A DNA stretch of 37,225 bases, taken from a virus. The notes under the pieces were generated by a model. That model saw only the letters and a program-made list of their open reading frames with translations. It was not told where the DNA came from and searched no databases. The stretch covers positions 1-37,225 of the IMG/VR virus record IMGVR_UViG_3300049259_000181, one strand, 5' to 3'. Position 1 is the first letter of the stretch; each line of letters opens with the position of its first letter. Shown here one piece after another: positions 7,403-33,950 of this stretch. The position numbers were made by a program, and so were the translations under genes.

Positions 7403-7500
7403 CGGTGGGCCGTCACCTACCGCATCCCGCGGTCAGCCAGGTCCCAAAGTGCCCACGATGTTCGAGGAGAACCCTGATGTCCGAACAGACCGAAGACTGA
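7399..7500 (+). CDS. Small zinc-knuckle-like ORF (33 aa)
   Basis: GTG at 7399 overlaps the HIT stop (GTGA) and opens a 33-codon frame ending at 7500. It contains KCPRCSRRTL, a single CPRC knuckle. The junction type matches the rest of the operon, which supports translation. The peptidase ATG follows 14 nt after its stop. Confidence 0.45.
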   Translation: MTVGRHLPHPAVSQVPKCPRCSRRTLMSEQTED

Positions 7501-7514
7501 CCGCGGCCAGGACG

Positions 7515-13188: not shown

Positions 13189-13201
13189 GCGCAGTTTCCC
13201 C

Positions 13202-16837: not shown

Positions 16838-17005
16838 TCAGTTGCGGAATCCTTGGGACGCAGGGGGAGTAGGTCGCCTGCCGTGTTCACGGTCGAGGCG
16901 GATCTGCCGGGCCCGGTTGTCTTCACGGGCATGCACCATGGACACCCACAACAAGCCCGCGACCCGGAACGGCCCAGCAGCAACGGACACCAGACGAGGA
17001 ATCAT
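16838..17005 (-). CDS. Small single-pass membrane protein
   Basis: A 55-aa protein. ATG at 17005 overlaps the stop of the kinase-like gene (ATGA). A membrane segment covers about residues 5-24 (LVSVAAGPFRVAGLLWVSMV), followed by a basic tail, so N-out/C-in topology is likely. An upstream in-frame ATG at 17023 is less well placed. Function unknown. Confidence 0.52.
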   Translation of the reverse strand: MIPRLVSVAAGPFRVAGLLWVSMVHAREDNRARQIRLDREHGRRPTPPASQGFRN

Positions 17006-17532
17006 CGGGTTCCACCTGCCCACGCCGGGAGAGCCACATGCGGCGGCAGGGCGACGATCCAGAGGTCGTCCCAGCCCTCAGCGGGCATGGTTGGCAGATC
17101 GCGGGTGATCGCGAGGTGCATCGACCAGATCACCTGCTCGGGGACGCGGCGGGCGTAGCCACACCAGCACGGCCGCAGGTCGCGGGTGGCGTTGCGCGCC
17201 AGGGTGTCCAGCAGCGGAGGCAGAATCACCACACCAACCGTGCGGGCATCGACCTCGCCGGCCAGCATCTGCAACGCGATCCGCTCGGATGTTTGCCAGT
17301 TGGTGGCATCCCACGCGACCGTCGAACCGCGGGCGAGCCCGGCGAGGGCCTGCCGGACACCGAGTTCCACCGCGTACGGGGTTGCGTTCTGGTTCGCGGA
17401 GCAGCCGCACGGCGACAGGTTCCGGCGGTTCCAGTCCAGCGACACCGACGGCACCAGCGGGTGGTTCGCTTTGAGCCACTCGGTTTTCCCTGCACCGGCG
17501 GGGCCGATGGTGGCGATGAGGGTGCCGGTCAC
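17002..17532 (-). CDS. P-loop kinase (polynucleotide kinase-like)
   Basis: A 176-aa AAA/kinase-fold protein. The P-loop GPAGAGKT is at 10-17. W-D-A-T-N at about 71-75 matches the substrate-binding strand of polynucleotide kinase-like and zeta-type kinases, and Arg residues follow (RIALQML, ARNATRD). Phage relatives phosphorylate 5'-OH ends for repair of cut RNA or DNA. There is no phosphatase or ligase domain. GTG at 17532 overlaps the sigma-like gene stop (GTGA) and has GGAGGTG upstream. Substrate is not determined. Confidence 0.8.
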   Translation of the reverse strand: MTGTLIATIGPAGAGKTEWLKANHPLVPSVSLDWNRRNLSPCGCSANQNATPYAVELGVRQALAGLARGSTVAWDATNWQTSERIALQMLAGEVDARTVGVVILPPLLDTLARNATRDLRPCWCGYARRVPEQVIWSMHLAITRDLPTMPAEGWDDLWIVALPPHVALPAWAGGTR

Positions 17533-18152
17533 GACCGCACCTCCGGGTATTGGCTGCAGGTTTGGTCGTTCATCCCCGCCTCCTCGTATCGAGAAACGCG
17601 CCGGTCGGTGCCCCACGGTTTCGACGGGATCTCGCCTTCGTGCCAGAGCGCGAAGAACTCGGCGCGGGCGCGGCCAAGCAGCGCCCGATAGGTCTGCGGG
17701 GCGATCCCGAGCGCTTCGGCTGCGGCACGGTAGTTGTCCAGCGCTGCCAACGCCTCGAACGCTTCGCGCTGCCGCTCGGTCAGCTCCGGAAAGATCTGGC
17801 GCACGGTGAACCGGTCGATGAGAGTCTCCTCGAACGGTGACCGCGGCGTGGTCCAGAACTTCGCGAACGCCGGTGACGAGCCGGAGCCTGCCTCGCCGCC
17901 GATCGTCTTGTGCTTGTAGAAGCCGTGGTGCCGCCGGTAGTCGTGGACGACGGCATAGATCGCCGTCTGGCCGACACGGACCAGTTCATGCCGCTGCGGT
18001 GGTTCCTCCACGGAGTACAGGTGCGTGGCGATGTCGGAGTAGGCCAGGTCGTAGCGTTCGTGGTAGTCCATGCCCATCGGGCCGATGGTGTGCACCGCGA
18101 GCCGCGCGAGCTCGTGGAGGTTGGCGAGGGTGTAGCCGTGCCTGAGTTCCAT
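17529..18152 (-). CDS. Sigma-factor-like protein
   Basis: A 207-aa protein with the layout of a small sigma factor. Residues about 25-80 (YHERYDLAYSDIATHLY and AIYAVVHDYRRHHG) look like a degenerate region 2, and about 121-172 (FPELTERQREAFEALAALDN then helix-turn-helix) is a typical region 4 with a -35-binding helix. Such proteins in actinobacterial phages and elements may switch on late genes. The promoter it reads cannot be seen here. ATG at 18152 overlaps the previous stop as TAATG. Confidence 0.72.
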   Translation of the reverse strand: MELRHGYTLANLHELARLAVHTIGPMGMDYHERYDLAYSDIATHLYSVEEPPQRHELVRVGQTAIYAVVHDYRRHHGFYKHKTIGGEAGSGSSPAFAKFWTTPRSPFEETLIDRFTVRQIFPELTERQREAFEALAALDNYRAAAEALGIAPQTYRALLGRARAEFFALWHEGEIPSKPWGTDRRVSRYEEAGMNDQTCSQYPEVRS

Positions 18153-18613
18153 TACACGTCCACCAGTTCGGGAAGACGCACGGTGGTGATCGGCATTCCG
18201 AACCGCGCGTCCGGCACACCTGTGGCGGCGCAGACGCTGCACCCGAATTCACCGGGCACACCCGCCGGCGAATGCCAGGCACACCACACGAGGCCGTAAA
18301 CCTCGACACCGTTCGGCAGAGTGGACAAAGCCGCGACGACGCGGGCGAGGTGGTTGAACGTGCGCACCGTTCCGGGCTCGTCCGGGTAGTCCCGCATGCG
18401 GTGGAGGATCGCGTCGCCCTCGCTGGCGAGAACGTCGGCTGCCGCGGTCGCCCATTTCTGGGCGGCTCGCGGTCGGACGTGCGGGCTGAGGTCGAGGAGT
18501 TCGGCGACGCGCAGTGGAACGGCGACCTGGAGGCAGGTCCGTAGCCACGTTTGGCCGACGCCATTCCAGTGCGTCAGCTCGTCGTGTGCCTGTGGCGTCA
18601 CGCGGTCCGTCAT
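18152..18613 (-). CDS. Unknown protein with C-terminal zinc-knuckle-like part
   Basis: A 153-aa protein. It is helical to about residue 105. The C-terminal part has CAWHSPAGVPGEFGCSVC, which places Cys and His for a zinc site. ATG at 18613 overlaps the homing endonuclease stop (TGATG). Function unknown. Confidence 0.6.
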   Translation of the reverse strand: MTDRVTPQAHDELTHWNGVGQTWLRTCLQVAVPLRVAELLDLSPHVRPRAAQKWATAAADVLASEGDAILHRMRDYPDEPGTVRTFNHLARVVAALSTLPNGVEVYGLVWCAWHSPAGVPGEFGCSVCAATGVPDARFGMPITTVRLPELVDV

Positions 18614-19146
18614 CACCGGGCCACCTCCAGATATTGGTCCCAGGTGCGGTAGCGCGTCGACAGTGTGCGGATCTCGTCGACCAACGAGATAAGTCCAGGT
18701 GTCGGGTCCCAACCAGCGGGCATCCACGGAAACGGGTCGTCATCGCCGCGCGTGGCGCGGATGTAGTCAACCTCCTCTTGCAAATGAACGACGAGCGCCG
18801 CACGGTTCTCCTTGATTCGAAGAAACGGGCGCAGAGCCTCGATTATCGGCACAGCCCTAGCGCCGCAGCGCTGCCAGTGATATTGGGTGCGGTGGTGCTC
18901 GCGACCATTTCCCGGCGAGTGAGCCGAAACCCGACCACCGAACAGCTTGGCAGCAAGGTCGTGCGGTTCACGCGCGCTGCCGGTGATGCCGACCTGTGCG
19001 CCGAAGTAGACACGTCCAGCGTGGGTGCTCATCGTCGCGGTGACGTATCCGTCTGCGTCGACGATGCCCGCGAGGTAGGCGAGGTCCGTCGCGCCCGGGG
19101 TTCCGTCGTCGCCCCGCGTCCACTCGATCTTCGATGTCGAGCTCAT
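18613..19146 (-). CDS. LAGLIDADG homing endonuclease
   Basis: A 177-aa protein with one LAGLIDADG motif (LAGIVDADG, 25-33) followed by the expected beta-rich half (VTATMSTHAGRVYFGAQVGI) and IIEALRPFLRIKENRAALV. With one motif it would act as a homodimer and cut a long, roughly palindromic site. The acidic Asp of the motif is present. It is freestanding, not within an intron or intein as far as can be seen, and its junctions are as tight (ATGA, TGATG) as those of its neighbours. Confidence 0.85.
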   Translation of the reverse strand: MSSTSKIEWTRGDDGTPGATDLAYLAGIVDADGYVTATMSTHAGRVYFGAQVGITGSAREPHDLAAKLFGGRVSAHSPGNGREHHRTQYHWQRCGARAVPIIEALRPFLRIKENRAALVVHLQEEVDYIRATRGDDDPFPWMPAGWDPTPGLISLVDEIRTLSTRYRTWDQYLEVAR

Positions 19147-19544
19147 GCGATCGCCTGACCCAGAGCGGCGAACAGGCTGTCCGCGTCGATGTTCGCGGCG
19201 AGCGCCTCAGCGACATGCTGGTCGCGGCCGTAGCTGCGGAAATCGTCGCTGTAGTCGTGCCCGCAGCCGCAGTGCATCGTGCCGCCGAACTGGCCGTGCG
19301 CGCCGCGATGCACACGCATCACGTCGTCCACATAGGTCTGGGGGAGCCCGGTTTCGCGGGCGGTCATCTCGCGGATGTGTCCGCCGAGCAGGTCACCCGG
19401 GAACCGGTGGCCGCAGTAGCAGTCGTCCCACACACCGTCGGGGCTGTGGCGGAGCAGGGCCGCCATGACGCGGCGCCGCATCTTGAGTCGGGCGATGACG
19501 ACGTGGGCTTCTTCGTCGGAGGGGATGGTCACGAGATGGGTCAT
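19143..19544 (-). CDS. Unknown protein with Cys/His clusters
   Basis: A 133-aa protein. CYCGH (about 42-46) and HCGCGHDY (about 91-98) suggest two linked zinc sites. AAGAAG precedes the ATG. A 27-nt gap separates it from the gene upstream. Its last codons with the next start form the sequence GCGATCGCATGA, which recurs at the DUF1643 start. Function unknown. Confidence 0.62.
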   Translation of the reverse strand: MTHLVTIPSDEEAHVVIARLKMRRRVMAALLRHSPDGVWDDCYCGHRFPGDLLGGHIREMTARETGLPQTYVDDVMRVHRGAHGQFGGTMHCGCGHDYSDDFRSYGRDQHVAEALAANIDADSLFAALGQAIA

Positions 19545-19571
19545 CGGATTCTTCTTTCTGGCTTGCCGTGT

Positions 19572-20135
19572 TCAGTTGCGGCCGAACACTTTCGCGTTGT
19601 CGTCCGGGTCGAGGCAGTCGCCGAGGATGCGCAGCGACTGGTGGCCATCGGTGGCCGGTGGCACCGACGCACCGATCTTGATCAGGAGCGCGCGGACCGG
19701 TGGGCACGGCCACTGCACGACGTCACCGCGGTGGCACCAAATCCGGCCATCGTCACCGACGCTGGTGACGCTGCAGTCCACGCACGACCCGCCGAAACCT
19801 TCGCTCCACTCGTGGTCCGCGAACAGCTTGTGCAGCGCGGCCATCTCGGCGGCGGTGCAGTCGGGCCGCCACACGGTCGGCGGGACAGTGCGCAGCGGCA
19901 CCGTGGCCGTCACGATGTCGCGGTGCGGGGAACGGACCGTCGAGTCGGAGCGGTCGCGGCCGTAGGTGATCGTGCCGCCCTGGACGACCACCGGGTGCTC
20001 GGCGGTCGCCAGGTCGAGGTTGTTGTCGGCCATCCACTCGGTGACCGCGGCGAGGTCGTCGTCGCTGAGCCAGTGCGCGGCGTAGGCATTCAGCCGCCAC
20101 GTGACGCTGGCCAGGTCCACGGCCGCGGCGCCCAT
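19572..20135 (-). CDS. Unknown protein with CxxC and CH motifs
   Basis: A 187-aa protein. SCVDCSVT and WCHRGDVVQWPC in the C-terminal half indicate metal binding. The N-terminal half is helical. ATG at 20135 overlaps the preceding stop (TGATG) in the repeated GGTGCGTGATGG junction. No family recognised. Confidence 0.62.
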   Translation of the reverse strand: MGAAAVDLASVTWRLNAYAAHWLSDDDLAAVTEWMADNNLDLATAEHPVVVQGGTITYGRDRSDSTVRSPHRDIVTATVPLRTVPPTVWRPDCTAAEMAALHKLFADHEWSEGFGGSCVDCSVTSVGDDGRIWCHRGDVVQWPCPPVRALLIKIGASVPPATDGHQSLRILGDCLDPDDNAKVFGRN

Positions 20136-20653
20136 CACGCACCGACCTCGGCGGACTGGCCCGGGTCCGGCCCGTCCACATCGGCTGCGGCGACCCGTTC
20201 GACGGTGGCGTTCCGCACATCATGCAAACCCTGACCCGAGTTCGCGAGAATGGCCCCTTTCCCCACGAAAAACCCGTCGCGCGCCACCGACGTTTCATAG
20301 GTCACCCGCACCCGATCACCGCGCACCAAATCATCGGTGACAGTCGCCGGGGTACACAGCAAACCCTCAACGGCAGCAACGACGTCAGGGTCGGCGACGC
20401 GTTCCCGCCACTCGGCGGGCAGCGAATTAGCGGGCGCCGCGTCGGCGCGGGCCTGGTGCTCGGCCCGCTCCCACTGGGCCTCAGCGTGCAACCACATCAA
20501 CAACGCGATCGATTCGTACACGCTGGCCAGCTCGGCGAGGATCTGGTCGTGGTCAAGTCCATCGGGCCGGTGAGCTATCCCCAGCTGGCGGGCGACGGCG
20601 AGGCGGAACACCCGCAGATCGTTCTCGTCGGCCACAGGGCGCTGTCCGCTCAT
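20135..20653 (-). CDS. Unknown protein sharing a domain with its neighbour
   Basis: A 172-aa protein. Residues 13-50 (LRVFRLAVARQLGIAHRPDG then LDHDQILAELA) match the central part of the next upstream gene product. The rest includes a basic strand-rich C-terminal region (VRVTYETSVARDGFFVGKGA). ATG at 20653 overlaps the previous stop (ATGA). The shared domain is a probable duplication. Function unknown. Confidence 0.65.
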   Translation of the reverse strand: MSGQRPVADENDLRVFRLAVARQLGIAHRPDGLDHDQILAELASVYESIALLMWLHAEAQWERAEHQARADAAPANSLPAEWRERVADPDVVAAVEGLLCTPATVTDDLVRGDRVRVTYETSVARDGFFVGKGAILANSGQGLHDVRNATVERVAAADVDGPDPGQSAEVGA

Positions 20654-21387
20654 TTGTCCCGGTCCTCACCGTCGCCGTCGGGGGAAGCCAGCTCGCCGCG
20701 CCCATCGGTGTGGTGGCCGTCGGTCAGCACCCGATAGGCAGCGCGGCACCGGTCGGACGGGTCCTGGCTGCTCCGCAGCAGCTCGGTCGCCGCAGCCTTG
20801 ATCCGGTGGTCCCGCTCGGCGAGCCGCTTCGACAGGCGGTCCACGTCGTCGGCGGTCGCGTTGTCCGCCCAGAACCGGTCGATGTCGCCGCACCATCCGC
20901 GGATCGCGTCGATGACGGCGTGCGGATCGACACCGGTCGGGTCCTCGATCAACTGGGTGATGGTGCTTTCCCAGTCGGGCGCCGGAATGAACGCCCGCCC
21001 CACCAGGCTGTCCACTGTGGCCTGCAACGCCGCGTACATGAACCGCAGCCGCGCATGCTGGAATTCGGCGTCGGCGCGGGCCTGCCGGAACGCCAGCATC
21101 TCCTCCAGGATGAGCTGGTGGTCGAGGCCGTCGCGGCGGTGGGTGGTGCCGAGTACGCGGGCGACGGTGAGCCGCAACTCGCGCAGCTCGTGCAGTTCCT
21201 TGCCGGTGAGCGCATGGATGGTTTCCCCGATGCGCATGTCGACCTCGCGCTGGCGGTCGTCCAACTGCTCCCACGGTGCGAGCCAGGACAGTTTCGGGTC
21301 CGGTTGTTCCATCGCCCACGTGACCCACACGTCGCGGACGATGCGCCCGAGGTGCTCGCGGCGCGGGTTTGATGTTGGTGTGTTCAT
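20650..21387 (-). CDS. Unknown phage-type protein
   Basis: A 245-aa protein. Its N-terminal part (WVTWAMEQPDPKLSWLAPWE then LDDRQREVDMRIGE) is of a type I recognise from many actinophage and mobile-element proteins of unknown function. The next part (LRELRLTVARVLGTTHRRDG then LDHQLILEEM) is shared with the neighbouring gene. The C-terminal region is helical and charged. ATG at 21387 overlaps the preceding stop (ATGA). Confidence 0.68.
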   Translation of the reverse strand: MNTPTSNPRREHLGRIVRDVWVTWAMEQPDPKLSWLAPWEQLDDRQREVDMRIGETIHALTGKELHELRELRLTVARVLGTTHRRDGLDHQLILEEMLAFRQARADAEFQHARLRFMYAALQATVDSLVGRAFIPAPDWESTITQLIEDPTGVDPHAVIDAIRGWCGDIDRFWADNATADDVDRLSKRLAERDHRIKAAATELLRSSQDPSDRCRAAYRVLTDGHHTDGRGELASPDGDGEDRDK

Positions 21388-22058
21388 GCGATTTTGCAGC
21401 CTTCCTGATACCAGCGGCGGAGTTCTTCCTGTGTGGGCAGCGGTAGCCGCGCAGGGCCCCGGCCGCATTTCGGCAACCGGTCCAGCTCCTCCTGCGAATA
21501 ACCGGACTGTTCGAGCGCGGTCCTCAACGAGGTGGCGCGCACCCCCAACGCAGCCACGATTTCGGCCGGCGGGAGACCAAGTTCTTTCAGAACCTCGTAT
21601 TCGTCGACCGTCTCGGCGCGGGTCCGTTGCCGGTTGACCGGTAACTGCCCGGCTCTCGCGAGGTACGAATAGCAGGAACGGCACTTCCCGCGGGTTTTCG
21701 GCTCGGTCGGGTCGTCGCATTTGCAGACCCGCCGGTGTGACGTGAACGTTGGTTCAGGTTTCGGTTGGTAGTGCACGCACGCCGGCCAACTGACGATGAT
21801 CTGGCGGTGGGATCGGCGTTCGTCGCCGATTCCATGTACGCAGCGGGACCGGGTCCGGTCGTTGTGGCGGCTGGCTTCGCGGAACACGCAGCCACCGCAG
21901 CGGAGCCCGGTGGCGGTGGTGTCGTCGATCGGTGCGGCGTCCGGGTGCAACGCCACCTCGCGCCGGGTGACGGTGAGCAGCGGATGCGTACCCGATGCGG
22001 CGCGCTCGGTGACCATGCGGCACCGTGCAGCCCAATCGTCCGTGACAGGAGTGCTCAT
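21384..22058 (-). CDS. Zinc-knuckle protein with helix-turn-helix
   Basis: A 224-aa protein. The first half holds Cys pairs (CGGC near 54-57, then C73, C92) and a WPACVHY element. A second cluster (CKCDD...CRSC, about 112-130) follows. Residues about 155-185 (LGLPPAEIVAALGVRATSLR) form a likely helix-turn-helix. It may be a DNA-binding protein of the element. ATG at 22058 lies 3 nt after the stop of the upstream gene. Confidence 0.62.
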   Translation of the reverse strand: MSTPVTDDWAARCRMVTERAASGTHPLLTVTRREVALHPDAAPIDDTTATGLRCGGCVFREASRHNDRTRSRCVHGIGDERRSHRQIIVSWPACVHYQPKPEPTFTSHRRVCKCDDPTEPKTRGKCRSCYSYLARAGQLPVNRQRTRAETVDEYEVLKELGLPPAEIVAALGVRATSLRTALEQSGYSQEELDRLPKCGRGPARLPLPTQEELRRWYQEGCKIA

Positions 22059-22061
22059 CGT

Positions 22062-22559
22062 TTAGCGCTCCAGTGTGATTCCGTCGACCGTTCCGGCCGC
22101 GACATAGGCGGCCAGGTCGTTGACGGTGATCTCGACGGGAAGGATCCTGTTCAAGCGGTCCAGCTCTTCCGGTGTGATGTCACCGATCACCCAGCGCCAC
22201 AGGTCACTGTGCTCGACGTCCCACACCTCCACACGGATTCCTTCCATGCCGCCGGTGACAGCGACCTTGGTCGCGTGGTTGCTGGGATCTCCATGGCATT
22301 GGAGGCTGATGACGACGTCGCTGAGCGTGCGGGCCCACAACAGGACGGCGTGGGCGTCGACGGGCTCGCCGAAGACCGACACCGAAGTGATCTGCAAGAC
22401 CGTGTCGACGTCGCCCCCCACTGCGCGGTGGACGACAACGTACGGAAGCGTGGGGTGCTGGTCGAGGTGGGTGGCGAGCGCGGTGAATATCGCGGCCTGT
22501 GAGTGCGCGGGCATGGTGGGTTCCTGCCGTGTGTCGAGGGTGGTTGTGTGGTCGGTCAT
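22062..22559 (-). CDS. Unknown acidic protein
   Basis: A 165-aa protein, acidic, alternating strands and helices, no Cys cluster. ATG at 22559 overlaps the preceding stop (ATGA) in a 17-bp junction that is repeated at the next gene upstream (22554-22570 and 23054-23070). Function unknown. Confidence 0.6.
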   Translation of the reverse strand: MTDHTTTLDTRQEPTMPAHSQAAIFTALATHLDQHPTLPYVVVHRAVGGDVDTVLQITSVSVFGEPVDAHAVLLWARTLSDVVISLQCHGDPSNHATKVAVTGGMEGIRVEVWDVEHSDLWRWVIGDITPEELDRLNRILPVEITVNDLAAYVAAGTVDGITLER

Positions 22560-23059
22560 CGGTGGTCTTCCCCGGGGTTGCCGTTGGGGGTCGGTGCGGC
22601 GATGGTGGCGCGGAGGTCGTCGATGGTGATGACGGCGTGATTCCCGCGTCGGCCGGAGCGGGTCCGTTTCCAGTCGACGGTGATACCGGGCAACCCGCGC
22701 CCACCGCGGCGGGACACGGAACCGGCGAGGTTCCAGGTGATCCCGTCCCGGTCGATGGTGGCGTGCAAGCACACGTCCAGCTCGCGCCGCTCGACCGCGA
22801 CCTGCCCGGCACCGAGGGCTTCGCACCAGCGGACGAACCCGTGCGGTGTGGAGGACAGGATCACCGTGACCTCGGGCAGCACGGGAAGCGTGAAATCGCG
22901 GGTTTCCGGGTTCCAACGGTGCGCAGTGGACGACCCGCAGGCGAAGTCGAGGTGGGTGCCGGGCAGGCCATGTTCGCTGATCAGTTTCGCGGCGGTAGCC
23001 ATGGTGTCGAGGACTTCCTGGGTCCTGATGTCCGCCATGGACGGTGCAGGTGTGGTCAT
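22556..23059 (-). CDS. Unknown protein
   Basis: A 167-aa protein with predicted strands (VTVILSSTPHG, DVCLHATIDRDGITWNLAG) and a basic C-terminal part (VDWKRTRSGRRGNHAVITID). ATG at 23059 overlaps the SsgA-like gene stop (ATGA). No motif recognised. Confidence 0.6.
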   Translation of the reverse strand: MTTPAPSMADIRTQEVLDTMATAAKLISEHGLPGTHLDFACGSSTAHRWNPETRDFTLPVLPEVTVILSSTPHGFVRWCEALGAGQVAVERRELDVCLHATIDRDGITWNLAGSVSRRGGRGLPGITVDWKRTRSGRRGNHAVITIDDLRATIAAPTPNGNPGEDHR

Positions 23060-23595
23060 CGGTGGTCTTCTTCCGCTTCGCCGTGGGGGTCGATGTCGTC
23101 GCCGTCGGCGGCTTCGAACAGGTGCTCGCCGGGAGGGTTGTGCCACCAGGTGCCGCCCCGGTACTGGGGTTCGCACCAGCAGCCGCTGCGGTGCTCGTGG
23201 TAGGCGAGGCGGGCGATCACGTCGTCGACGTCGACGGTTTCCTGGTGGTATTCGACGAGTTCTTCGGTGGCGATCAGGAACTCGATGACGTCGTCGACGT
23301 CGACCGCGAGGACCGCGTGCCCCTGGGGTGAGGTGAGGCTGATGTGGACGGTGTCGTGGCGCGGTTCGAGGCGCACGTCACCGACCCCGGCGGGGGACTG
23401 CAGACCTGCAGCGAGCAAATCGCGGGCGAACACCCAGTCGCTGATGGGCAAGCTGGGGAACGCGAGCCGCACCGCGTAGGGATCTTTGGTGTTGTAGTGC
23501 AGTTTCGCGAACAGTAGCTGTCCGCTGGTGATGAGGTCGGTGAGCACGGGCTGGACGACGGTGCTGGTGTCGGGCTGCCGGATGTAGGTGGCCAT
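23056..23595 (-). CDS. SsgA-like sporulation/cell-division protein
   Basis: A 179-aa protein. Residues about 15-118 follow the SsgA-family (SALP) pattern: KDPYAVRLAF (37-46), WVFARDLLAAGL (54-65), GVGDVRLEP (70-78), LTSPQGHA (87-94) and FLIATEELV (106-114). SALPs control septum placement, FtsZ recruitment and wall remodelling in sporulating actinomycetes. This one has an extra acidic C-terminal part (about 120-179) with CWC and several Trp/His, not typical of chromosomal SALPs. Carriage on a mobile element is unusual and suggests that the element acts on host septation. Start overlaps the preceding stop (TGATG). Confidence 0.85.
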   Translation of the reverse strand: MATYIRQPDTSTVVQPVLTDLITSGQLLFAKLHYNTKDPYAVRLAFPSLPISDWVFARDLLAAGLQSPAGVGDVRLEPRHDTVHISLTSPQGHAVLAVDVDDVIEFLIATEELVEYHQETVDVDDVIARLAYHEHRSGCWCEPQYRGGTWWHNPPGEHLFEAADGDDIDPHGEAEEDHR

Positions 23596-24095
23596 CACGC
23601 ACCGCCCTGGGTGGAGTCGGTGTGGGTCCCGTGGAACGGGCACGGCTGCGGGTAGGCCAGTGCGCCCGCCTGGCAGCACCAATGCCCGAACGGATCGGGT
23701 GTGAGGCCCATGGCGCCAACCCAACCCGGGAGAGCGGCGCAGCCCTCCGCGCGCTTGGTGATGTCCTTCGCCCCCAGCCGGTCCAGCAATCGACGCAACT
23801 GGCCGAGGTCCGTGGGCACCTCACGGTGCAGGGCCTCGAAGAACTCGGGGACATCGGCCAATGCCTGAAACGCGTCACCGAAGATCCGCAGGCGCAGGTA
23901 CGGCGTGCCACCAAGGACGTGCTCTTGGACGTCGAATTCCCACTTCACGCCACCACCGTCCGCGTCCGCCGAGATCTGCACGGATGGGAGTTCGTCGGCG
24001 ACGGCGGAGCGGTACCACGCTTCCTTGAGAACGATGTAGGCGAACGTGCAGTGGTCGTCAATCCGACGAGGCGGCTGGACCCAATTGGTGGCCAT
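23595..24095 (-). CDS. Unknown protein next to the SsgA-like gene
   Basis: A 166-aa protein with an alpha/beta N-terminal half and a C-terminal Cys/His group (HWCCQAGALAYPQPCPFHGT) likely to bind metal. ATG at 24095 lies in the repeated junction GGTGTGTGATGG. Function unknown; coupling suggests the same expression as the SsgA-like protein. Confidence 0.6.
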   Translation of the reverse strand: MATNWVQPPRRIDDHCTFAYIVLKEAWYRSAVADELPSVQISADADGGGVKWEFDVQEHVLGGTPYLRLRIFGDAFQALADVPEFFEALHREVPTDLGQLRRLLDRLGAKDITKRAEGCAALPGWVGAMGLTPDPFGHWCCQAGALAYPQPCPFHGTHTDSTQGGA

Positions 24096-24439
24096 CACAC
24101 ACCGCCGATCGGCCACACGGCGGCGACTGTGGTGCTGTCCCCGGCGGCGTGGTTCCCTCCGTGCCCGGCAAGACGGGTGCATGCCCACTCGTCGCAGGTG
24201 GCATCGCAGACGTCGACGAACCCCGTGGTGCCCTCGGTGTCGTCAAGCTCGCCGACCCGGTACACGCGTCGCCGGGCGAGAACTTCGCGCACCTTCTCGG
24301 CGCTGTAGACGGGCACGAACCCGCAGCCCTGCCGGTGTTCGCCGAGCGGCCCGGGATCGCAGGTGCAGCTGCCGCTCTGCTCGCACAGGTACTCGCCGAT
24401 GACGGCCAGTTCCTCGTCGCCGACTGCTGGTTCGGCCAT
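24095..24439 (-). CDS. Small protein with multiple Cys/His
   Basis: A 114-aa protein: CEQSGSCTCDPG near 20-31, then CGFVPVYSAEKVREVLARRR (a helix), then CDATCDEWACTRLAGHGGNH. The Cys/His sets suggest two zinc sites. ATG at 24439 overlaps the preceding stop; a GTG one codon earlier is possible. Confidence 0.6.
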   Translation of the reverse strand: MAEPAVGDEELAVIGEYLCEQSGSCTCDPGPLGEHRQGCGFVPVYSAEKVREVLARRRVYRVGELDDTEGTTGFVDVCDATCDEWACTRLAGHGGNHAAGDSTTVAAVWPIGGV

Positions 24440-24591
24440 CACACACCACCCCGGCGCCGCTGCTTGTGGATCTCCCGCAGGTCAGCCACTGTCCACAACA
24501 GCGGCTCGCTGCCGACGTCGCTGTGCAACGCGGCCAGCATCTCGGCGACCGCCTTCGCGGCCTGCTTCTTGGCTTTCCGGCGCTTCCCCAT
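24439..24591 (-). CDS. Small basic protein
   Basis: A 50-aa protein with basic ends (MGKRRKAKKQAAK and IHKQRRRGGV) around a helix. It might bind nucleic acid. ATG at 24591 overlaps the preceding stop (TGATG). Function unknown. Confidence 0.55.
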   Translation of the reverse strand: MGKRRKAKKQAAKAVAEMLAALHSDVGSEPLLWTVADLREIHKQRRRGGV

Positions 24592-25001
24592 CACGCAGCC
24601 GCCGTCCGGGGCGCGGGCACCGGCAGGAACAGGGCGCCACCCATCTGCCGTTTCTGCGCGTTCAGGGCGGCACGCAACTCGCGGAGGCAGTTGGCTTCCT
24701 CGCCGTCCGCGTAGTCCGAGTCGGGTCCGTCGGCGCCGTCTTCCACGCGCCACCGGAAATAGGCGGCGGTGATCTCCGAGGCGGCCATGCGGGCGGTGCG
24801 TTCGTCGGCGACGGGTTCGGTGAGCTGCCAGCCGAAGTCCGGGATGTCGCCGTCGGTGGCGTCCCGGAACGCGAACATCACCGCCAACTCGACGGCGCGG
24901 CGGGTGAGGATGCCGGCGAGGTGCGCATAGGTGGGTTCGCCGGCCAGCGACACCGGTGTGGTGATGGTCGCGTGGGGGAGTTCGGTGATGCGAGTTGTCA
25001 T
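24591..25001 (-). CDS. First gene of operon B, unknown
   Basis: A 136-aa protein, helical and acidic in the middle (DGADGPDSDYADGEEANCL). The ATG at 25001 is used because an earlier in-frame start at 25046 coincides with the predicted transcription start. AGGA lies 9-12 nt upstream of the ATG. It opens the 17-kb leftward run behind the operator-containing promoter. Family not recognised. Confidence 0.65.
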   Translation of the reverse strand: MTTRITELPHATITTPVSLAGEPTYAHLAGILTRRAVELAVMFAFRDATDGDIPDFGWQLTEPVADERTARMAASEITAAYFRWRVEDGADGPDSDYADGEEANCLRELRAALNAQKRQMGGALFLPVPAPRTAAA

Positions 25002-25241: not shown

Positions 25242-26561
25242 TCAGACCGCGCGCAGACCCGAGTAGTTACTCAACGCGCTCCGATCCGGGCGCCACACCA
25301 GCCGCACATCACCAGTCGGCCCCTGCCGGTGCTTCGCCAACGCCAACTGCCGCTCGCCCGGCCGGGTGTCGTCGTCCCACAGGAAAATCACGCCATCCGC
25401 GTCCTGCTCCAGCGAACCCGACTCACGCAGATCAGCCAGGATCGGGCGCGGCACCTGCCGCTTCTCGACCTCCCGGTTGAGCTGCGCCGCCGCAACAACC
25501 GGAACATCAAGCTCACGCCCCAGCAGCTTCAACGCCTGCGAAAACCCCGTCACCTCGACCTGGCGGGACTCGCTACGCTCCCCGGCCTTCATCAACTGCA
25601 CATAGTCCACAACCACGATCCCGCACTTCGCCGGCCCGCGGACATGGTCACGCGCCAGGCTGCGCAGCTTCGGAGGTGTCAGCGAAAACGGATTCTCGAT
25701 CCGCAGCGGCGTGTCCCGCAGCTGGAGGTTCGCGAGACGCACCTTTTCCCAGTCGTCCTCGGTCAGCTGGTGTTTCGACAGGTTGCGCAGGCTGACGCGG
25801 GCGACCTGCGCGAGCACACGGTCGGTGAGTTCCTCGCGGCTCATCTCCAGTGACACGAACAGCGCACCACAGCCCTGGCTTCGCACGACGTTGGTCGCGA
25901 TGTTGACCGCGAAATTCAACCCCAGCGTCGACTTGCCCACCCCCGGGCGGGCCGCGAGCACCGTGAACGTGCCCGGCCGCAACCCGCCGTCCAGCAACTC
26001 GTCCAGGTCCGCGAACCCAGTCGGCAGCGCCGGTGGCGTCGCTTCCGCGTACCGCTTCAGCGCGGCCTCGGTGAGTTCCCCGATCCAGGCGCCGTCGTCG
26101 TCGCCGCGGCGCACGAACGACGTAGTGGCGCGATCGACCACCGCGCGAGCCTGCTCAAGTAGATCGGGCAGTTCGTCGACGGTCGTATCCCGGTGCGCCA
26201 TGTCCTGCAACGCCGAGGTCGCCTCGAGCAGCCTGCGTCTGACCGCGGTCCCGGCCACCATCTGGGCGTAGTAGGCGACGTTCGCGACCGCACCGGTTTG
26301 GTACAGGTCGAGTAGGTACGGCGCCCCGCCGCACCGCTCCAGGTCCTCGCCGAGTTGCTCGGCGACCGTGATCGGATCGACCTCCCGGTCCGCGTCACGC
26401 ACCGCGAGGATCGCCGCGTAGATCCGCCGGTGCGCATGCCGGTAGAAATCATCCGCGGTAAGCCAGTCCGCGGCCTCCGGGATGCGTTTCGGTGCGCGCA
26501 TCACCGCGCCGAGCAGGCCACGCTCGGCGTCGAGATCGGATGGGGGCAGGGGCTCGGTCAC
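25242..26561 (-). CDS. dnaB: Replicative DNA helicase DnaB
   Basis: A 439-aa DnaB. The N-terminal collar domain (about 10-115) is followed by a linker and a RecA-like motor with Walker A ARPGVGKST (204-212), Walker B IVVVDY (315-320), AQLNREVEKR (359-368) and DLRESGSLEQDAD (377-389). It unwinds the fork as a hexamer and recruits host primase. Length is near that of bacterial DnaB (about 450-470). GTG at 26561 overlaps the initiator gene stop (GTGA), so initiator and helicase are made together. Having its own DnaB frees the element from the host loader-helicase pair, as in many phages. Confidence 0.95.
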   Translation of the reverse strand: MTEPLPPSDLDAERGLLGAVMRAPKRIPEAADWLTADDFYRHAHRRIYAAILAVRDADREVDPITVAEQLGEDLERCGGAPYLLDLYQTGAVANVAYYAQMVAGTAVRRRLLEATSALQDMAHRDTTVDELPDLLEQARAVVDRATTSFVRRGDDDGAWIGELTEAALKRYAEATPPALPTGFADLDELLDGGLRPGTFTVLAARPGVGKSTLGLNFAVNIATNVVRSQGCGALFVSLEMSREELTDRVLAQVARVSLRNLSKHQLTEDDWEKVRLANLQLRDTPLRIENPFSLTPPKLRSLARDHVRGPAKCGIVVVDYVQLMKAGERSESRQVEVTGFSQALKLLGRELDVPVVAAAQLNREVEKRQVPRPILADLRESGSLEQDADGVIFLWDDDTRPGERQLALAKHRQGPTGDVRLVWRPDRSALSNYSGLRAV

Positions 26562-27718
26562 GCAACACCAGCCCGGCGGTTCCACGCGCGAACCAGAACC
26601 CGCCGCACCTCGGCGCGCCGCACCGACAGCCGCTCAGCAGCCCAGTCGTCGAAAAACGCCCGCCGCGCGGTTGCGTCCTCCTCGGTCCACCCATTCGGGC
26701 GGTCCACATCGTCCCCAGGCCACGGAGGCGGCTGCTGGCTGTCCGGACCCAGAATGCCCTGGACACGCCGACGGGTCAGGTACTCGTCCGGGATGTGCTG
26801 CGGATCCACCCGCGGGGTCCCGTACTCGTCGATCAGCGGTTTCTCCGGGTCTTCACCCGCGTTCAGCCGCCCGGCGGCGTCGTCGTACAGCCATTGCAGC
26901 GCCTTCGCCGTGTAGGCGTTGTCGCGCCGGTTCCACTCGCCGAGCGCCGCGCTGAGGCAGTCCCGGTCGTATCCGGCGCGGACCGCGCGGTCGACCTGCT
27001 CGGTCATCTCCCGGATCAACTTGTCCGACAGCCGTGTCGCGTGCCCCGCCCGCCACGCCTCGACGAGGCGGCGAGTGTCGGGGTGCGTCGCTGTCGCGTT
27101 GAGTTCCTCGAGCTTCTGACGGCGCGGTGTGGCTGGAGGCTCCGGGGATGGGGCAGCAGTCGGTTCCGGCGGCGCCTCGCGCGCGACGCGCGTGTGTGCG
27201 TGCGCGTCGCGCGTGTGCGCACGTGTCGCGCCCGCGCGCGCCCCCACCACTTCCGAAGGAAGTGAAGAAGAGGTGGCTAGTACGGGGATCGTACTAGGGT
27301 CAGCGTTTTCCCTGGTCGTAGCTGGTTCAATCCCCGTACTAGGGGGGTTCAATCCCCGTACCGGCCCTGGTTCAATCCCCGTACCGGCCCCAGTACGATC
27401 CCCGTACTGGGGGGCCGGTTCGATCCCCGTACTGGGGGCCAGGGTCAACAGGTACGTGCTGTTGCCGGTTCCGCCGTCCTCCCGCTGCTGCGACGCGGTC
27501 TTCAACAGGCCCGCGTTCCGAAGGATCGTGAGCGCGTTCGACACCGTGCCGCGGGACATGCCGCACCGTTGCACGAGGACGGTCAGGGACATGTCGTCGC
27601 TGCAGGTGCCGTCGCTGTCGGCGTCGTCCGCCAACACCATCAAGACGAGTTTCGCCGACGTGTTACCCAGTGGCGGGAGCTGGCGCATAGCCCAGCGCAT
27701 GATCTTTCGGTTGCCCAC
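26558..27718 (-). CDS. Winged-helix replication initiator (origin-binding) protein
   Basis: A 386-aa protein. Residues about 1-93 form a helix-turn-helix/winged-helix domain of the phage replisome-organiser kind (MRWAMRQLPPLGNTSAKLVL, MSLTVLVQRCGMSRGTVSNA, LTILRNAGLL). Residues about 94-200 are a low-complexity linker whose DNA carries the iteron-like repeats. The C-terminal part (200-386) is helical and may contact DnaB, whose gene overlaps the stop. This is the layout of lambda O and similar initiators, where the origin is inside the initiator gene. GTG at 27718 has AGGAAAGG upstream. Origin binding is inferred. Confidence 0.75.
   Translation of the reverse strand: MGNRKIMRWAMRQLPPLGNTSAKLVLMVLADDADSDGTCSDDMSLTVLVQRCGMSRGTVSNALTILRNAGLLKTASQQREDGGTGNSTYLLTLAPSTGIEPAPQYGDRTGAGTGIEPGPVRGLNPPSTGIEPATTRENADPSTIPVLATSSSLPSEVVGARAGATRAHTRDAHAHTRVAREAPPEPTAAPSPEPPATPRRQKLEELNATATHPDTRRLVEAWRAGHATRLSDKLIREMTEQVDRAVRAGYDRDCLSAALGEWNRRDNAYTAKALQWLYDDAAGRLNAGEDPEKPLIDEYGTPRVDPQHIPDEYLTRRRVQGILGPDSQQPPPWPGDDVDRPNGWTEEDATARRAFFDDWAAERLSVRRAEVRRVLVRAWNRRAGVA
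27277..27432. repeat. Iteron-like repeat array, candidate replication origin
   Basis: Six copies of ATCCCCGTAC lie in the linker part of the initiator gene. Five are direct: 27330-27339, 27352-27361, 27375-27384, 27398-27407 and 27423-27432, spaced 22, 23, 23 and 25 bp, about two helical turns. One is inverted at 27280-27289. Four direct copies extend to GGTTC[AG]ATCCCCGTAC. Copy 5 is a perfect palindrome with 10-bp arms (27388-27397 and 27403-27412) and the inverted copy one with 8-bp arms (27277-27297). The copies fall in different reading frames, so selection acts on DNA, not peptide. Origin function is inferred. Confidence 0.72.
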
Positions 27719-27774: not shown

Positions 27775-28002
27775 CTACGGGGGCCGGTGGTCGCAGTCGG
27801 CGGTGATGTCCCAGCGGCACAGGAGGCTTTCCAAATGCTCGGCGACCTGGTGGAGGGTGCCGGCGCGGCCGGGGCAGCCGTGGTGGTCGAGGAGGGCGGT
27901 GTCGCGGCGGCAGGCGGCGGTGTAGTCGGCGAGCCAGGCCCGTGCTTGGTGCGCGGTGACCCGGTTGGCGCGGTGTGTCAACTTTCCATGTGTCAAGTTC
28001 AC
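27775..28002 (-). CDS. Small helical protein with Cys/His
   Basis: A 75-aa protein (begins VNLTHGKLTHRANRV). Cys and His are spread over the sequence (C31, C43, C62, C70), possibly a zinc site. GTG at 28002 overlaps the helicase-methyltransferase stop (GTGA). A 56-nt gap follows before the initiator GTG. Function unknown. Confidence 0.58.
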   Translation of the reverse strand: MNLTHGKLTHRANRVTAHQARAWLADYTAACRRDTALLDHHGCPGRAGTLHQVAEHLESLLCRWDITADCDHRPP

Positions 28003-30533
28003 GCGGCGTCACCGTCCGTTGCTGGAAGGTCGAACAGGGTCGGGAGACTCGCGCGTCGTTCTTCGGTCTGCAGGTACTTGACGCCGTCCAGCCAGTAGCC
28101 GGGGTTGAGCTCCACAGCACGCCCACGGCGCCCGGCTTTCAGGGCGCGGACGGGCACGGTGCCGAGGCCGCCGAACGGGTCGTAGACGAGCTCTCCGGGG
28201 TTGCTGTACCGGGTGATGAGCCGGTCGACGATTTCGAACTGAATCGGACAAACATGCATGACTCGGGCGCGCCGGGACTGCTCGGTGTTGAGGGTGAGCA
28301 TGCGGTTGATGTCGTGCCACACCTCGGGGTGCCAGGAGCCGGGGGCGAGCGCCATGAACGTCGCGGGGAGCGCGCCTTTGCTGTCGAGGGTTTCGCCGAC
28401 GCGGATGTGGGCTTCGTAGTCGTAGACCTCGCGGAGGGTCTGTTCGGTGAACAGCCTGCTCATCTGTTCGGCGGGGAGGGCGGCGAGTTCGTCGGGGGTG
28501 AGGTGCCGGTCCCCTGAGGTGCGCCAGAACGCGTGCGCGTCGACCTGCCACCGTGCCCGCGTGTAGTCGGCTTTGTCTTTGGTGACAGGGGTGTCGGCGT
28601 AGCCCTTGGTGCGGTCGGTCTGCGGTTTGTGGAACAGCAGGATGTACTCGGGGCTGCCGGCCCCCATCTTGGTGGCGTCCTTGCACTGCTCAGACCAGCC
28701 CAACCGGTAGGTCTGGTTGTTCTCCCGCACCACGTCGGTGATGACGGTGATCATGCCGAGGTAGTCGAAACCGTGGCGTTGGCCGTGCATGATCGCTTCG
28801 GCGTGGAAGGGGGAGACGGTCGGGACGCCGGCGCCGGTGACCGCGCCGAACAGGATGCGGTCCTTGACGTGGCAGGCGTAGATCCGGCCCGGTTTCAGCA
28901 CCCGCAGCAGGTGCGGGGTGAGGTAGTCCATCTGCGCCCAGAAATGGGCGTTGTCGTCGGTGTGCCCAAAGTCCTCGTAGGCCGGGGTGTACTCGTAGTG
29001 GTTCGAGAAGGGGATGGACGTGACGATCAGGTCGACGGAGTTGTCCTCCAGCGCACTGGTCTCGGCAACGGTGTCGTTGTTCGCGAACACCCAGCCGTCG
29101 CCGGACGCTTCGATGCGTTCGACACCCATGCTGCGGGTGAGGGCGGCGACGATCCCGTCGGTGTCGAGGCCGTGCTCGCGGATGATGTCGCTCATGGTGT
29201 CGGTCAACTCCTCGTGCTGAGTCCATTTCGCGCGCAGGGTGCGGACGACTTCGCGCTCGGATTCGGCGTGGATGACGTGCACCTGGCAGGTGTGCTGCTG
29301 GCCGTAGCGCTGGATGCGATGCAGGGACTGAATGAAATCCGCGAACTTGTAGCTCACGCCCACGTAGATGGCGGTGTGGCATTGCTGCAGGTTCATGCCC
29401 TGGCCGAGCATCACCGGTTTCCCGATCAGTGCGGTGGTTTCCCGGTTGCGCCACTGCTCCAGCCGGGCCTCGCACTCGTCCGGTGTCAGGCCGCCGTGCA
29501 CGGACGAGTAGGAGACTCCGAGCTGGGTGAGGGCTTTCTCGGTGGCGTCCTGCTCGGCGTTGAGGTCGCACCAGATGATGATCTGGTCGCCGGCCGCGGC
29601 CGTAGTGTGTTCGGCGACGAGCTGGGTCATGCGGTCGATGCGCTCCGTGAGGGTGTCCCGTTTTTCGCGGGCCACGTCCTTGACGCCGAGCGTGCCGCCG
29701 CGGAACAGATGGGCTTGCCCATCCCGGTTGACCCCCGCGAGGCTGTGGTCGACGGCGACCTCGTGGAAGTGAACGTCGGCGTCGGGTAGGTCGTAGCCGG
29801 TGGCGTCGAACCCGAGGTCGGCGGGGGATTGCAGGAACACGGCCCACGTGTTGAGCCACAGGAAGAACTCGCGGCGCTTGTGCGGGTACAGGGTGAGGTT
29901 GTTCGCCTGGGTGGAGTCGCGCTGGAAGAACCGGGTGAGCGCTTCCCCGGTGGCCATCACACCGAGGAACCCGGCGTAGTGGATGAGTTCCTTGTGTCGG
30001 TTCGGAGATGGTGTGGCGGTGGCGACGAACCGATACGGCACCTGGTGGAACAGGGTCAGGAACGTCTGGAAGGTTTTCGACCCGAATGAGCGGAGCACTG
30101 CGGCTTCGTCGAGGCTGACCGCGTCGAACTCGTTGGGGTCGAGTTTGCCGTCGCGCACGGTTTCGTAGTTGGTGACGTAGATCCCGGGCCCGGTGGCGTC
30201 GTCGATGGAGCGGATGAACCGGGCGGTGAGGCCGATCGCGGCGGCTTCGGCGGCGAACTCGGTGCGCACCCCGAGTGGGCACACGATCAGCGCGCGTTGC
30301 CCGCCGGACTTGGCGAGGGTGAGCCTAAGCGACTCGAGTTGCATGCGGCACTTTCCAAGCCCGAATCTGGCGAACATGCCGCGCCGGCCACCGCGGACCG
30401 CCCACGCGACGATTGCGCGTTGGTGCGGTTTCAGCGACGAGTGCACCTCGGACTCGTCGACAGGGTGGCCGTAGGTGCGGCTGAAGTTGACCTTCTGTTC
30501 GAGGAACTCGGTGTAGCTCAGGGTGGCCGTCAT
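27999..30533 (-). CDS. Helicase-DNA methyltransferase fusion
   Basis: An 844-aa two-part protein. The N-terminal half is an SF2/SNF2-like helicase: FGLGKC (57-62, Walker A with Cys where Thr/Ser is usual), DEAA (142-145), ATATPSPN (171-178), HRIQRYGQ (405-412). The C-terminal half is an amino-methyltransferase of the beta order: catalytic TSIPF (505-509, in place of [DNS]PP[YF]) then SAM-binding DPFGGLGT (785-792) and a GRRGRAVELN element. It would methylate adenine N6 or cytosine N4. Phage P1 DarB also joins methylase and helicase and protects DNA from type I restriction, so an anti-restriction role is possible here. ATG at 30533 overlaps the DUF1643 stop. Confidence 0.85.
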   Translation of the reverse strand: MTATLSYTEFLEQKVNFSRTYGHPVDESEVHSSLKPHQRAIVAWAVRGGRRGMFARFGLGKCRMQLESLRLTLAKSGGQRALIVCPLGVRTEFAAEAAAIGLTARFIRSIDDATGPGIYVTNYETVRDGKLDPNEFDAVSLDEAAVLRSFGSKTFQTFLTLFHQVPYRFVATATPSPNRHKELIHYAGFLGVMATGEALTRFFQRDSTQANNLTLYPHKRREFFLWLNTWAVFLQSPADLGFDATGYDLPDADVHFHEVAVDHSLAGVNRDGQAHLFRGGTLGVKDVAREKRDTLTERIDRMTQLVAEHTTAAAGDQIIIWCDLNAEQDATEKALTQLGVSYSSVHGGLTPDECEARLEQWRNRETTALIGKPVMLGQGMNLQQCHTAIYVGVSYKFADFIQSLHRIQRYGQQHTCQVHVIHAESEREVVRTLRAKWTQHEELTDTMSDIIREHGLDTDGIVAALTRSMGVERIEASGDGWVFANNDTVAETSALEDNSVDLIVTSIPFSNHYEYTPAYEDFGHTDDNAHFWAQMDYLTPHLLRVLKPGRIYACHVKDRILFGAVTGAGVPTVSPFHAEAIMHGQRHGFDYLGMITVITDVVRENNQTYRLGWSEQCKDATKMGAGSPEYILLFHKPQTDRTKGYADTPVTKDKADYTRARWQVDAHAFWRTSGDRHLTPDELAALPAEQMSRLFTEQTLREVYDYEAHIRVGETLDSKGALPATFMALAPGSWHPEVWHDINRMLTLNTEQSRRARVMHVCPIQFEIVDRLITRYSNPGELVYDPFGGLGTVPVRALKAGRRGRAVELNPGYWLDGVKYLQTEERRASLPTLFDLPATDGDAA

Positions 30534-31006
30534 GCGGCACCTCCGAGGTACTCCACCGGCAGTGCGGTTTTCGGGATGTACAGAGGGTGCCGGGGTGCGC
30601 CGTGTTTAGTGGTGCCGAGGCAGCGGAGTGTGGCGGTGGTGTGCCGCAACCGTTCGGCGACGAGTGCGGCGCGGTCGCCGCCGTGCGCACCCCACGCCAG
30701 CACGGTCAGCGGGTCGTCGGCGCACCGTTCGAGGTAGGCGTCGTTGTCCGGGCCGATCGGGTCGGGGTGTCTGGTGAGCTGGGCGGGGTCGGTGGCGCGC
30801 AGTGCGTATGCGTTGCGGATGACGATCCCGGCGTAGCCCCAGTCGATGCCGAACCCGATGCAGCGGCGGACGCTCGGGTCGTCGATAGTTCCGTCGGCGG
30901 TCGAGGGGTTGAGCATGACCCAGCCGAGTAGCGGTCCTTCTTTCCAGCGGCGGACGAGTTCGTAGCGGTAGGTGCCGCAGGGGCTGATCACGGCGTCGCG
31001 CTTCAT
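30530..31006 (-). CDS. DUF1643 protein
   Basis: A 158-aa protein with the DUF1643 signatures: CGTYRYELVRRW near the start, VMLNPSTADGTIDDPSVRRC, VIRNAYALRATDP and TVLAWGAHGG. The family is found on phages, plasmids and near DNA-modification genes; its activity is not established. ATG at 31006 overlaps the cytosine methyltransferase stop (ATGA), within the repeated GCGATCGCATGA junction. Its position between two methyltransferases hints at a link to DNA modification. Confidence 0.88.
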   Translation of the reverse strand: MKRDAVISPCGTYRYELVRRWKEGPLLGWVMLNPSTADGTIDDPSVRRCIGFGIDWGYAGIVIRNAYALRATDPAQLTRHPDPIGPDNDAYLERCADDPLTVLAWGAHGGDRAALVAERLRHTTATLRCLGTTKHGAPRHPLYIPKTALPVEYLGGAA

Positions 31007-32715: not shown

Positions 32716-33950
32716 GCCTGCGGTCCCGCTTCACCAGCGGTGTCGCCGCCCTGAGTCGCCAGCTCGCCACGTTTAAGCTCAGCGTCCAGCGCGGCCTTAC
32801 GGTCGTCCGACTGAAGGACGGTGCCGAGCCGGTTGAGGACATCGCGGGCTTCGGCGTAGGTGATGTCGCTGGACGACGTGAGTTCGCCGGGGCGGCCGAC
32901 CAGTAGACCGAGCGTGGTGAGCTTGTCGTCCCGTTCAGTGAGGTCGAGATCGCCGAGCTGTGCGTGGAGCCGGTTCTGCTGCGACTGGTTGATCAGCGGC
33001 TGCTTTTTCGTGTCCCCCGTGCTGGCGCCCGTAGATCGCTTGACCGACTTCGCGGTGTCCTCCGCCGGCGGCTGTTCGTCGGGTTGCTCGTGCTGCCCGC
33101 CGTCGGGGCCGTCTCCGTCTTCCGGTTCCTCGCCGACAACTTCGCCGTCGATGTCGCCGGGCATCGGGTGCTCGCCGTGCAGCATCGATTCGGGGCTGGG
33201 TGCGAGGTCAACGCGGACACTGCTGTCGGCTTCCAGGGCGTAGGCCAGGTCGGTGGACTTGGGCATCCACTTGGCCAGCCGCAGGAACGTGGTTTTAGTT
33301 GCCATCTCGTCGAAGTTGTCTCGCCACGGGCCGACGACCTCGCCCTGCTTGGTGCGGGCCATGGCAAAGCGGTCGCGCCACTCCTCGCATTCGGTTTTGC
33401 TCATGTGCCAGAACGCGTAGCCACCGGTGGTGTATTTGACGATGGTGTAGTAGCCGATCGCCTCACCACGGGGACCGCTCTTCGGCGGCTTGTGCACCAG
33501 GTTGTCGGCGAGCCCGTAGTCGATGTCGAACTCGTCGTTTTCGTAGACGACACGGGCGATGAGGGTGGAGATCTGGCCGGATCGCTGCGCGAGTTCGCGG
33601 TAGCCCTGGTAGCCGATGATCAGCTGGGCTTTGTGGCTGCGGGACCGGTTGTCCCAGAACGGCAGCAGCCACGCGTGGCCGAGCACACCGGGGCGGAGGC
33701 CGAGCTGCGCGCAGGTCATCAGTCCACCGAGGACCGAGTACTTGTCGCATTTGTCGAGGTTGCGGGTGGTGCGCAGTGCGGTGATCGCGTCCCGGATCAA
33801 CTGGGCGGCTTCGGCGCCGTGCGGCATGGCGAGCGCGAACTGCTTCTCCATGCGCTGGATCTCGACAGCCAGCGACGCCGGCTGGTCGTCGCCCGTGCGG
33901 GCTGGTGCGTTGGTGTTGTCGCGGACGCGGGTGGCGAGGTTGTTGCCCAT
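32712..33950 (-). CDS. recT: RecT-family single-strand annealing protein
   Basis: A 412-aa protein. Residues about 30-245 are RecT: LMTCAQLGLRPGVLGHAWLL, LIIGYQGYRELAQRSGQI, VVYENDEFDIDYG, GYYTIVKYTTGGYAFWHMSK and FDEMATKTTFLRLAKWMP. The rest is a long acidic linker and an extra helical C-terminal domain (about 320-400) absent from short RecT proteins. RecT anneals complementary strands and promotes strand invasion with its partner exonuclease, here the YqaJ-type enzyme 50 nt upstream. AGGGAG lies 15 nt before the ATG at 33950. It would serve element replication and repair. Confidence 0.93.
   Translation of the reverse strand: MGNNLATRVRDNTNAPARTGDDQPASLAVEIQRMEKQFALAMPHGAEAAQLIRDAITALRTTRNLDKCDKYSVLGGLMTCAQLGLRPGVLGHAWLLPFWDNRSRSHKAQLIIGYQGYRELAQRSGQISTLIARVVYENDEFDIDYGLADNLVHKPPKSGPRGEAIGYYTIVKYTTGGYAFWHMSKTECEEWRDRFAMARTKQGEVVGPWRDNFDEMATKTTFLRLAKWMPKSTDLAYALEADSSVRVDLAPSPESMLHGEHPMPGDIDGEVVGEEPEDGDGPDGGQHEQPDEQPPAEDTAKSVKRSTGASTGDTKKQPLINQSQQNRLHAQLGDLDLTERDDKLTTLGLLVGRPGELTSSSDITYAEARDVLNRLGTVLQSDDRKAALDAELKRGELATQGGDTAGEAGPQA

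Follow-up and report, generated by a model that had tools for sequence, protein, structure and literature searches.

An SsgA-like protein gene downstream of dnaB in a TraB-encoding mobile element and its counterparts on phages and plasmids

The SALP gene and the element that carries it

SsgA-like proteins (SALPs) are used by filamentous bacteria to decide the sites at which cross-walls are formed. Typical members of the family are 130-145 amino acids long, and SALP-domain proteins of about 490-650 amino acids have also been described (PMC3814722). The presence of SALP genes on mobile elements is already known: the Psed_7011 gene of the Pseudonocardia dioxanivorans plasmid pPSED02, published in 2013, encodes a SALP translationally fused to a WhiB-like (wbl) protein (PMC3814722), and an ssgA gene was published in 2020 for the singleton Streptomyces phage Dagobah (PMC7650747). 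No study of the function of a SALP carried by a mobile element came up in the literature searched. Here we analyse a SALP gene in an IMG/VR virus record of 37,225 bp (the window, by which we mean the whole stretch of DNA analysed), whose label as a virus is that of the IMG/VR classification only. Both published cases are likened to the window by their descriptions; pPSED02 resembles it in tying a plasmid SALP to a WhiB-like gene, but the two genes are fused in the plasmid and lie 16 kb apart in the window (PMC3814722).

The SALP gene, g42, is an uninterrupted open reading frame of 179 amino acids that starts with ATG and reads from 23595 to 23056 on the minus strand, and the plus-strand frame across the same interval contains stops. 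These are exactly the coordinates given, without a strand, in the original prediction, which had named the product as a SALP with five signature blocks and a C-terminal extension rich in Trp, Cys and acidic residues, all of which we recovered. SsgA (PF04686) is the sole Pfam match in the protein, spanning residues 30-119 and 96 of the 98 profile positions (3-98) with an E-value of 1.1e-25 and a score of 89.8 bits (cut-off 25), and the profile had matches in 0 of 14 control genomes. A phmmer search of the PDB gave E-values of 6e-15 to Thermobifida fusca SsgB (3cm1) and 8e-14 to 6slc, and the five SALP blocks, LxYxxxDPYAV, WVFARDLLxxGL, GxGDV, LxSPxGxA and the F(L)...V helix, occur in order. The protein falls below the equivalog cut-off for SsgD (NF052496; 77.1 bits versus 185) and the nearest SALPs are only about 30-44% identical. 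Its C-terminal tail takes it beyond the typical length of the family, but this range is not defining, given the longer SALP-domain proteins (PMC3814722), and membership is therefore not excluded. The g42 product is a genuine SsgA-like protein, by sequence and by fold.

Table 1. Features of the window discussed in the text
Feature	Position	Strand	Remarks
TraB-like FtsK/SpoIIIE DNA motor	108..2552	+	Pfam FtsK_SpoIIIE 27 bits (cut-off 24); start codon uncertain
WhiB-like regulator	6397..6654	+	Pfam Whib 8.8e-27
HIT-domain protein	7049..7402	+	common to window and sister element G027 (48%)
M23 peptidase	7458..8036	+	Pfam M23 6.7e-30; apparent N-terminal hydrophobic segment, read from sequence
Packed run of 16 ORFs including the SALP gene	17002..25001	-	most starts/stops overlap by 1-4 nt; 240 bp downstream of dnaB
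g41, downstream partner, 160 aa	22556..23038	-	one distant relative, on a Pseudonocardia linear plasmid
g42, SALP gene	23056..23595	-	SsgA domain residues 30-119; C-terminal tail from about residue 132
C-terminal tail of the SALP, residues 132-179	23056..23202	-	rich in W, C, H and acidic residues; predicted disordered
g43, upstream partner, 166 aa	23595..24095	-	stop overlaps SALP start (TGATG)
DnaB-like replicative helicase	25242..26561	-	Pfam 2e-71; phrog_19 4.5e-102
Replication-initiator-like protein	26558..27718	-	phrog_1032 2.2e-14
Fused SNF2-type helicase/DNA methyltransferase	27999..30533	-	up to 73% identical to actinophage proteins
DNA methyltransferase	31003..32715	-	phrog_116 4.4e-46
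RecT-like ssDNA annealing protein	32712..33950	-	phrog_148 8.4e-79
RecE-like exonuclease	34001..35032	-	phrog_434 1.5e-84

The SALP gene sits in an operon-like run that follows dnaB and is not a member of a traB operon. The genes for the initiator-like protein, the helicase-methyltransferase, the second methyltransferase, RecT and RecE are located upstream of dnaB and read in the same direction. Within the run, g43 has neither a Pfam match nor a plasmid relative, and g40, g41 and g43 gave no significant match to the SALP profile. Two pairs of paralogous small-protein genes were also observed in the window, at 3468-3689 and 4994-5224 (plus strand) and at 20135-20653 and 20650-21387 (minus strand). 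The M23 peptidase, WhiB-like protein and TraB-like motor that had been predicted to stand beside the SALP gene are indeed encoded in the window, but on the plus strand and about 15, 16 and 20.5 kb away from it.

The classification of the record as viral, together with RecE, RecT, DnaB, DNA methyltransferases and the FtsK/TraB motor, agrees with the mobile element that had been proposed, in which replication and recombination genes of phage type stand alongside a TraB-type motor; the motor scores 426 bits against the TraB-like FtsK protein encoded on a Streptomyces plasmid of 13.5 kb. Window proteins could be assigned to no virion or packaging family beyond domain-level cross-matches of M23 and RecE, the M23 protein matching endolysins and tail proteins through its peptidase domain alone. 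There was no match in the window to the portal profile, which also misses known phages; phrog_2 and the TerL profile PF03354, which both missed known phages, were dropped as virion tests. Neither an spd gene nor an integrase nor a plasmid or AICE replication gene was found in the window, in a contig that may be a fragment and for a class of spd genes that vary widely (PMC4170104). The window may be part of a larger phage, phage-plasmid or conjugative element, and virion genes may lie off the contig, since one relative (G047, below) has TerL, tail and TraB genes together. Judging from the SALP family alone, the host is probably a filamentous soil bacterium. The linear Pseudonocardia plasmid NZ_CP080522.1, which carries the g41 relative, also has in common with the window a SALP, a WhiB-like match, a methyltransferase and a DUF1643 protein of 59% identity, a sharing that hints at a host in the Pseudonocardiales.

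Predicted fold, core residues and C-terminal tail

An AlphaFold2 model of the protein, built from an alignment of eight element-borne sequences, is of moderate quality overall (mean pLDDT 68) with a confident core (residues 25-112, mostly pLDDT 75-90). When the model was compared with the PDB using Foldseek, ranks 1-8 were all SsgB chains, with E-values of 4e-6 to 3e-5, and the next match followed only at an E-value of 0.19, almost four orders of magnitude higher. Structural comparison with VIA likewise placed SsgB on top (Z 7.5, 3.1 A over 93 residues), followed by weak matches to MRP1/MRP2, Pur-alpha and PBF-2 (Z 4.1-2.9); kinship with these non-SALP folds was not accepted, as their Z-scores are at most 4.1. 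The modelled protein thus has the alpha+beta barrel fold of SsgB, and the original prediction, which was to stand or fall by an SsgA-like fold, is not refuted by the comparison.

The SsgB proteins of T. fusca (3cm1) and Streptomyces coelicolor (6slc, 6suj) resemble the window SALP in fold, in sequence blocks and in about 40% core identity, and nearly all of the functionally critical core residues are common to both. Mutants of S. coelicolor SsgB that fail to sporulate or divide wrongly have been described for Y35, V37, W51, L57, D70, L88, A95, L97 and V115 (PMC8061694); all nine are identical in the window SALP when it is aligned to S. coelicolor SsgB, as is the salt-bridge partner R55. The proteins part company at the VPPGxE loop between helices 2 and 3 of SsgB, which reads VEYHQE in the window SALP. 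The computed alignment shows L96 changed to V and P116 to E; reading on past its end, P117 and G118 have likewise changed, and E120 of SsgB is conserved and corresponds to E119. In SsgB the angle of helix 3 is determined by the loop positions that have changed, and because P116, P117 and G118 are all replaced, the loop that orients this helix is remodelled.

The second departure from SsgB is the extra tail of 48 residues, which contains three W, two C, six H and twelve D/E, as compared with about 0.4 W and no C expected from the composition of the core. It is disordered in the AlphaFold2 model, with pLDDT mostly 38-54 beyond residue 140. The tail is absent from every SALP aligned and gave no tblastn match at E<=1 among plasmids; an apparent match on a Pseudonocardia plasmid was rejected as chance, with stops in frame. 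As a guess from the HEH and CWC motifs, the tail may possibly hold a metal site. The window SALP is only about 40% identical to SsgB, whereas SsgB orthologues of Streptomyces are almost identical to one another (PMC3814722), and it differs again in its location on a mobile element. The changed loop and the added tail, neither of which has a homologue, may mark the protein as a modified interactor and not as a mere second SsgB, although any selection on these two features is conjectural.

SALPs on other phages and plasmids

The original prediction had called for a survey of mobile elements for SALPs, and this survey found them on several further elements. A relative of the window's helicase-methyltransferase is encoded in 45 virus records, two of which, G027 and G011, have a SALP. 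The first of these (IMGVR_UViG_3300038386_000165; 39.8 kb) is a sister element of the window, with identities of 67% for the helicase-methyltransferase, 48% for a second helicase, 41% for DnaB, 36% for TraB, 48% for the HIT-domain protein, 30% for RecE and 37% for the SALP. Its SALP gene, at 36203-36592, is on the same strand as traB, about 5 kb upstream of it, and lacks the C-terminal tail, whereas the window SALP has the tail and lies in the dnaB run. No virion family was found among the G027 proteins scanned. The ends of G027 (L103 start, L104 end) form a perfect inverted repeat of 147 bp, which may represent the true termini of a linear plasmid or an assembly artefact. G011, a temperate phage of 104 kb, encodes TerL, a head protein, a protease and an integrase, and the end of its SALP gene overlaps a WhiB-like gene by four bases (L111:10001-10620), echoing the published link between SALP and wbl in pPSED02. 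A third record, G047 (100 kb), was found through its SALP and encodes TerL, a tape measure protein, a major tail protein, an integrase, a WhiB-like protein and a TraB motor; the gene upstream of its traB is related to a gene near traB of G027, and the product of 12693-14330 reads like a VirD4-type coupling protein, without profile confirmation. G047 (L117-L121) is possibly a phage-plasmid with a transfer module.

In a phage collection, SALP matches were obtained in 38 Streptomyces phage records, the weakest with an E-value near 1. Nearly all of these proteins are labelled hypothetical in the records, and UniProt names that of BillNye as SsgA family. The SALPs of the Stanwilliamsviridae (Faust, TunaTartare, BillNye, Comrade and others) are like the window SALP in being single-domain proteins with phage-type carriage, but they are only about 25-34% identical to it, lack the long tail and form one separate clade in our tree (100/95). 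The SALPs of the window, G027, G011 and G047 are instead scattered among those of plasmids and hosts, in a tree that is poorly resolved around the window SALP. This pattern makes it likely, with the central branches unresolved, that SALP genes have been captured by elements more than once. The plasmid settings are mixed: a Saccharopolyspora plasmid has a SALP gene next to parAB and 12-16 kb from a DUF2637 gene and ftsK, and a Pseudonocardia plasmid has one near the gene for an RRQRL protein, the same kind of protein as adjoins traB/spdB in a Streptomyces plasmid. A Streptosporangium plasmid encodes two SALPs; the pair (L107:17055-18414) forms one overlapping operon with a function-unassigned gene in between.

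Viral contigs scanned with the window SALP alone yielded no relative, and the all-SALP alignment was too diverse for use as a scan query. The sole match among genome contigs, in a Bacillota MAG (L005), was discarded as a chance alignment to a short stretch of unrelated protein in a genome without a SALP. A Nonomuraea match was set aside as an ordinary SsgB-like gene on a chromosome-sized record, and so was MT838510 ('Bacteriophage sp.'; L003), a 5 kb clone with hydrolase-like and membrane-protein-like reading frames and no recognised phage gene, whose reading frames point to a piece of actinobacterial chromosome and whose SALP is an ordinary one.

Possible roles of an element-borne SALP

The original prediction had proposed that an element-borne SALP could steer septation or open sites for hyphal DNA transfer, and both are treated here as hypotheses. 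Redirected placement of host septa appears the likeliest role, and our best explanation, held tentatively and at somewhat less than even confidence, is that the SALP would be expressed early along with the replication genes and that its SsgA/SsgB-like surface would let it join or compete with host SsgA-SsgB complexes, thereby altering FtsZ placement and septation during replication and spread of the element. In its favour are the SsgB family and fold, the conserved core residues, the TGATG overlap with g43, the position in the run after dnaB and the recurrent carriage of SALPs by phages. Phage interference of this type has a precedent in WhiB-TM4, which hinders septation in Mycobacterium smegmatis, as cited in PMC7650747. 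In a related but improbable reading, the SALP would control the timing of sporulation septation or prevent it, with the result that the element passes into spores or its host remains in vegetative growth. SsgA and SsgB do act mainly in sporulation septation (PMC4255298, PMC3814722), and WhiB-like genes accompany SALPs in the window, G011 (where they overlap), G047 and pPSED02 (PMC3814722); on the other hand, the two genes are in different operons of the window, and WhiB-like genes are in any case very common on actinophages (24% of genomes, as cited in PMC10117723). We consider it very unlikely that a whirly/PUR-like fold was recruited for nucleic-acid binding in replication of the element, with septation not the target, as might be read from the position downstream of dnaB and the weak MRP1/MRP2, Pur-alpha and PBF-2 matches, since the published SsgB structure has the same resemblance and a described role in cell division (PMC3814722), and the residues critical in SsgB are kept. 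Least probable of all is a passenger gene captured from a host and now without a role: the low identity to the nearest SALPs would fit, and with no close relative known selection cannot be measured, yet the gene is intact in a dense operon-like run, its core is conserved despite great divergence, and SALPs recur on unrelated elements.

A role as a transfer accessory, in which places in septum and wall would be marked or opened by the SALP for TraB-driven (and Spd-type) movement of DNA between or along hyphae, is possible though rather unlikely. TraB of the window family was detected in only four of the 50 records searched (the window, G027, G047 and, weakly, G031), and three of these, the window, G027 and G047, also have a SALP. 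Intramycelial spread of plasmids across septal cross-walls and contact between SpdB2 and TraB have been described (PMC4170104), and the proximity of SALP and traB in G027 is matched by the Streptosporangium plasmid, where about 7 kb separate the two SALP genes from an ftsK-type gene downstream on their strand. Because the SALP played a part in the choice of the window and G047, a fair test of co-occurrence comprises 43 records, among which the association is insecure (Fisher p 0.09; 0.047 without the weak TraB match in G031). With p about 0.05-0.09 in a tiny sample, the link is no more than suggestive. Against it, this TraB family was not found in G011 or in the SALP-bearing Stanwilliamsviridae phages searched; the window SALP lies 20 kb from traB on the opposite strand, in the dnaB operon, and the window has no detectable Spd homologue. 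That elements of mycelial actinobacteria have repeatedly captured SALPs in order to choose or open cross-walls for TraB-type DNA movement is a bolder reading that seems to us improbable, and no description of a septum-targeting part in conjugation or intramycelial spread was found in the literature searched.

SALPs place septa in hyphal bacteria, and their carriage by elements bears on how phages and plasmids cope with multicellular hyphae. The frequency of phage SALPs is probably underestimated, since almost every phage copy in the records examined still bears the label hypothetical. SALPs are carried by at least four kinds of element, namely the window with its sister G027, the Stanwilliamsviridae, G011 and G047, and the idea that elements rewire host septation is therefore directly testable with one small gene.
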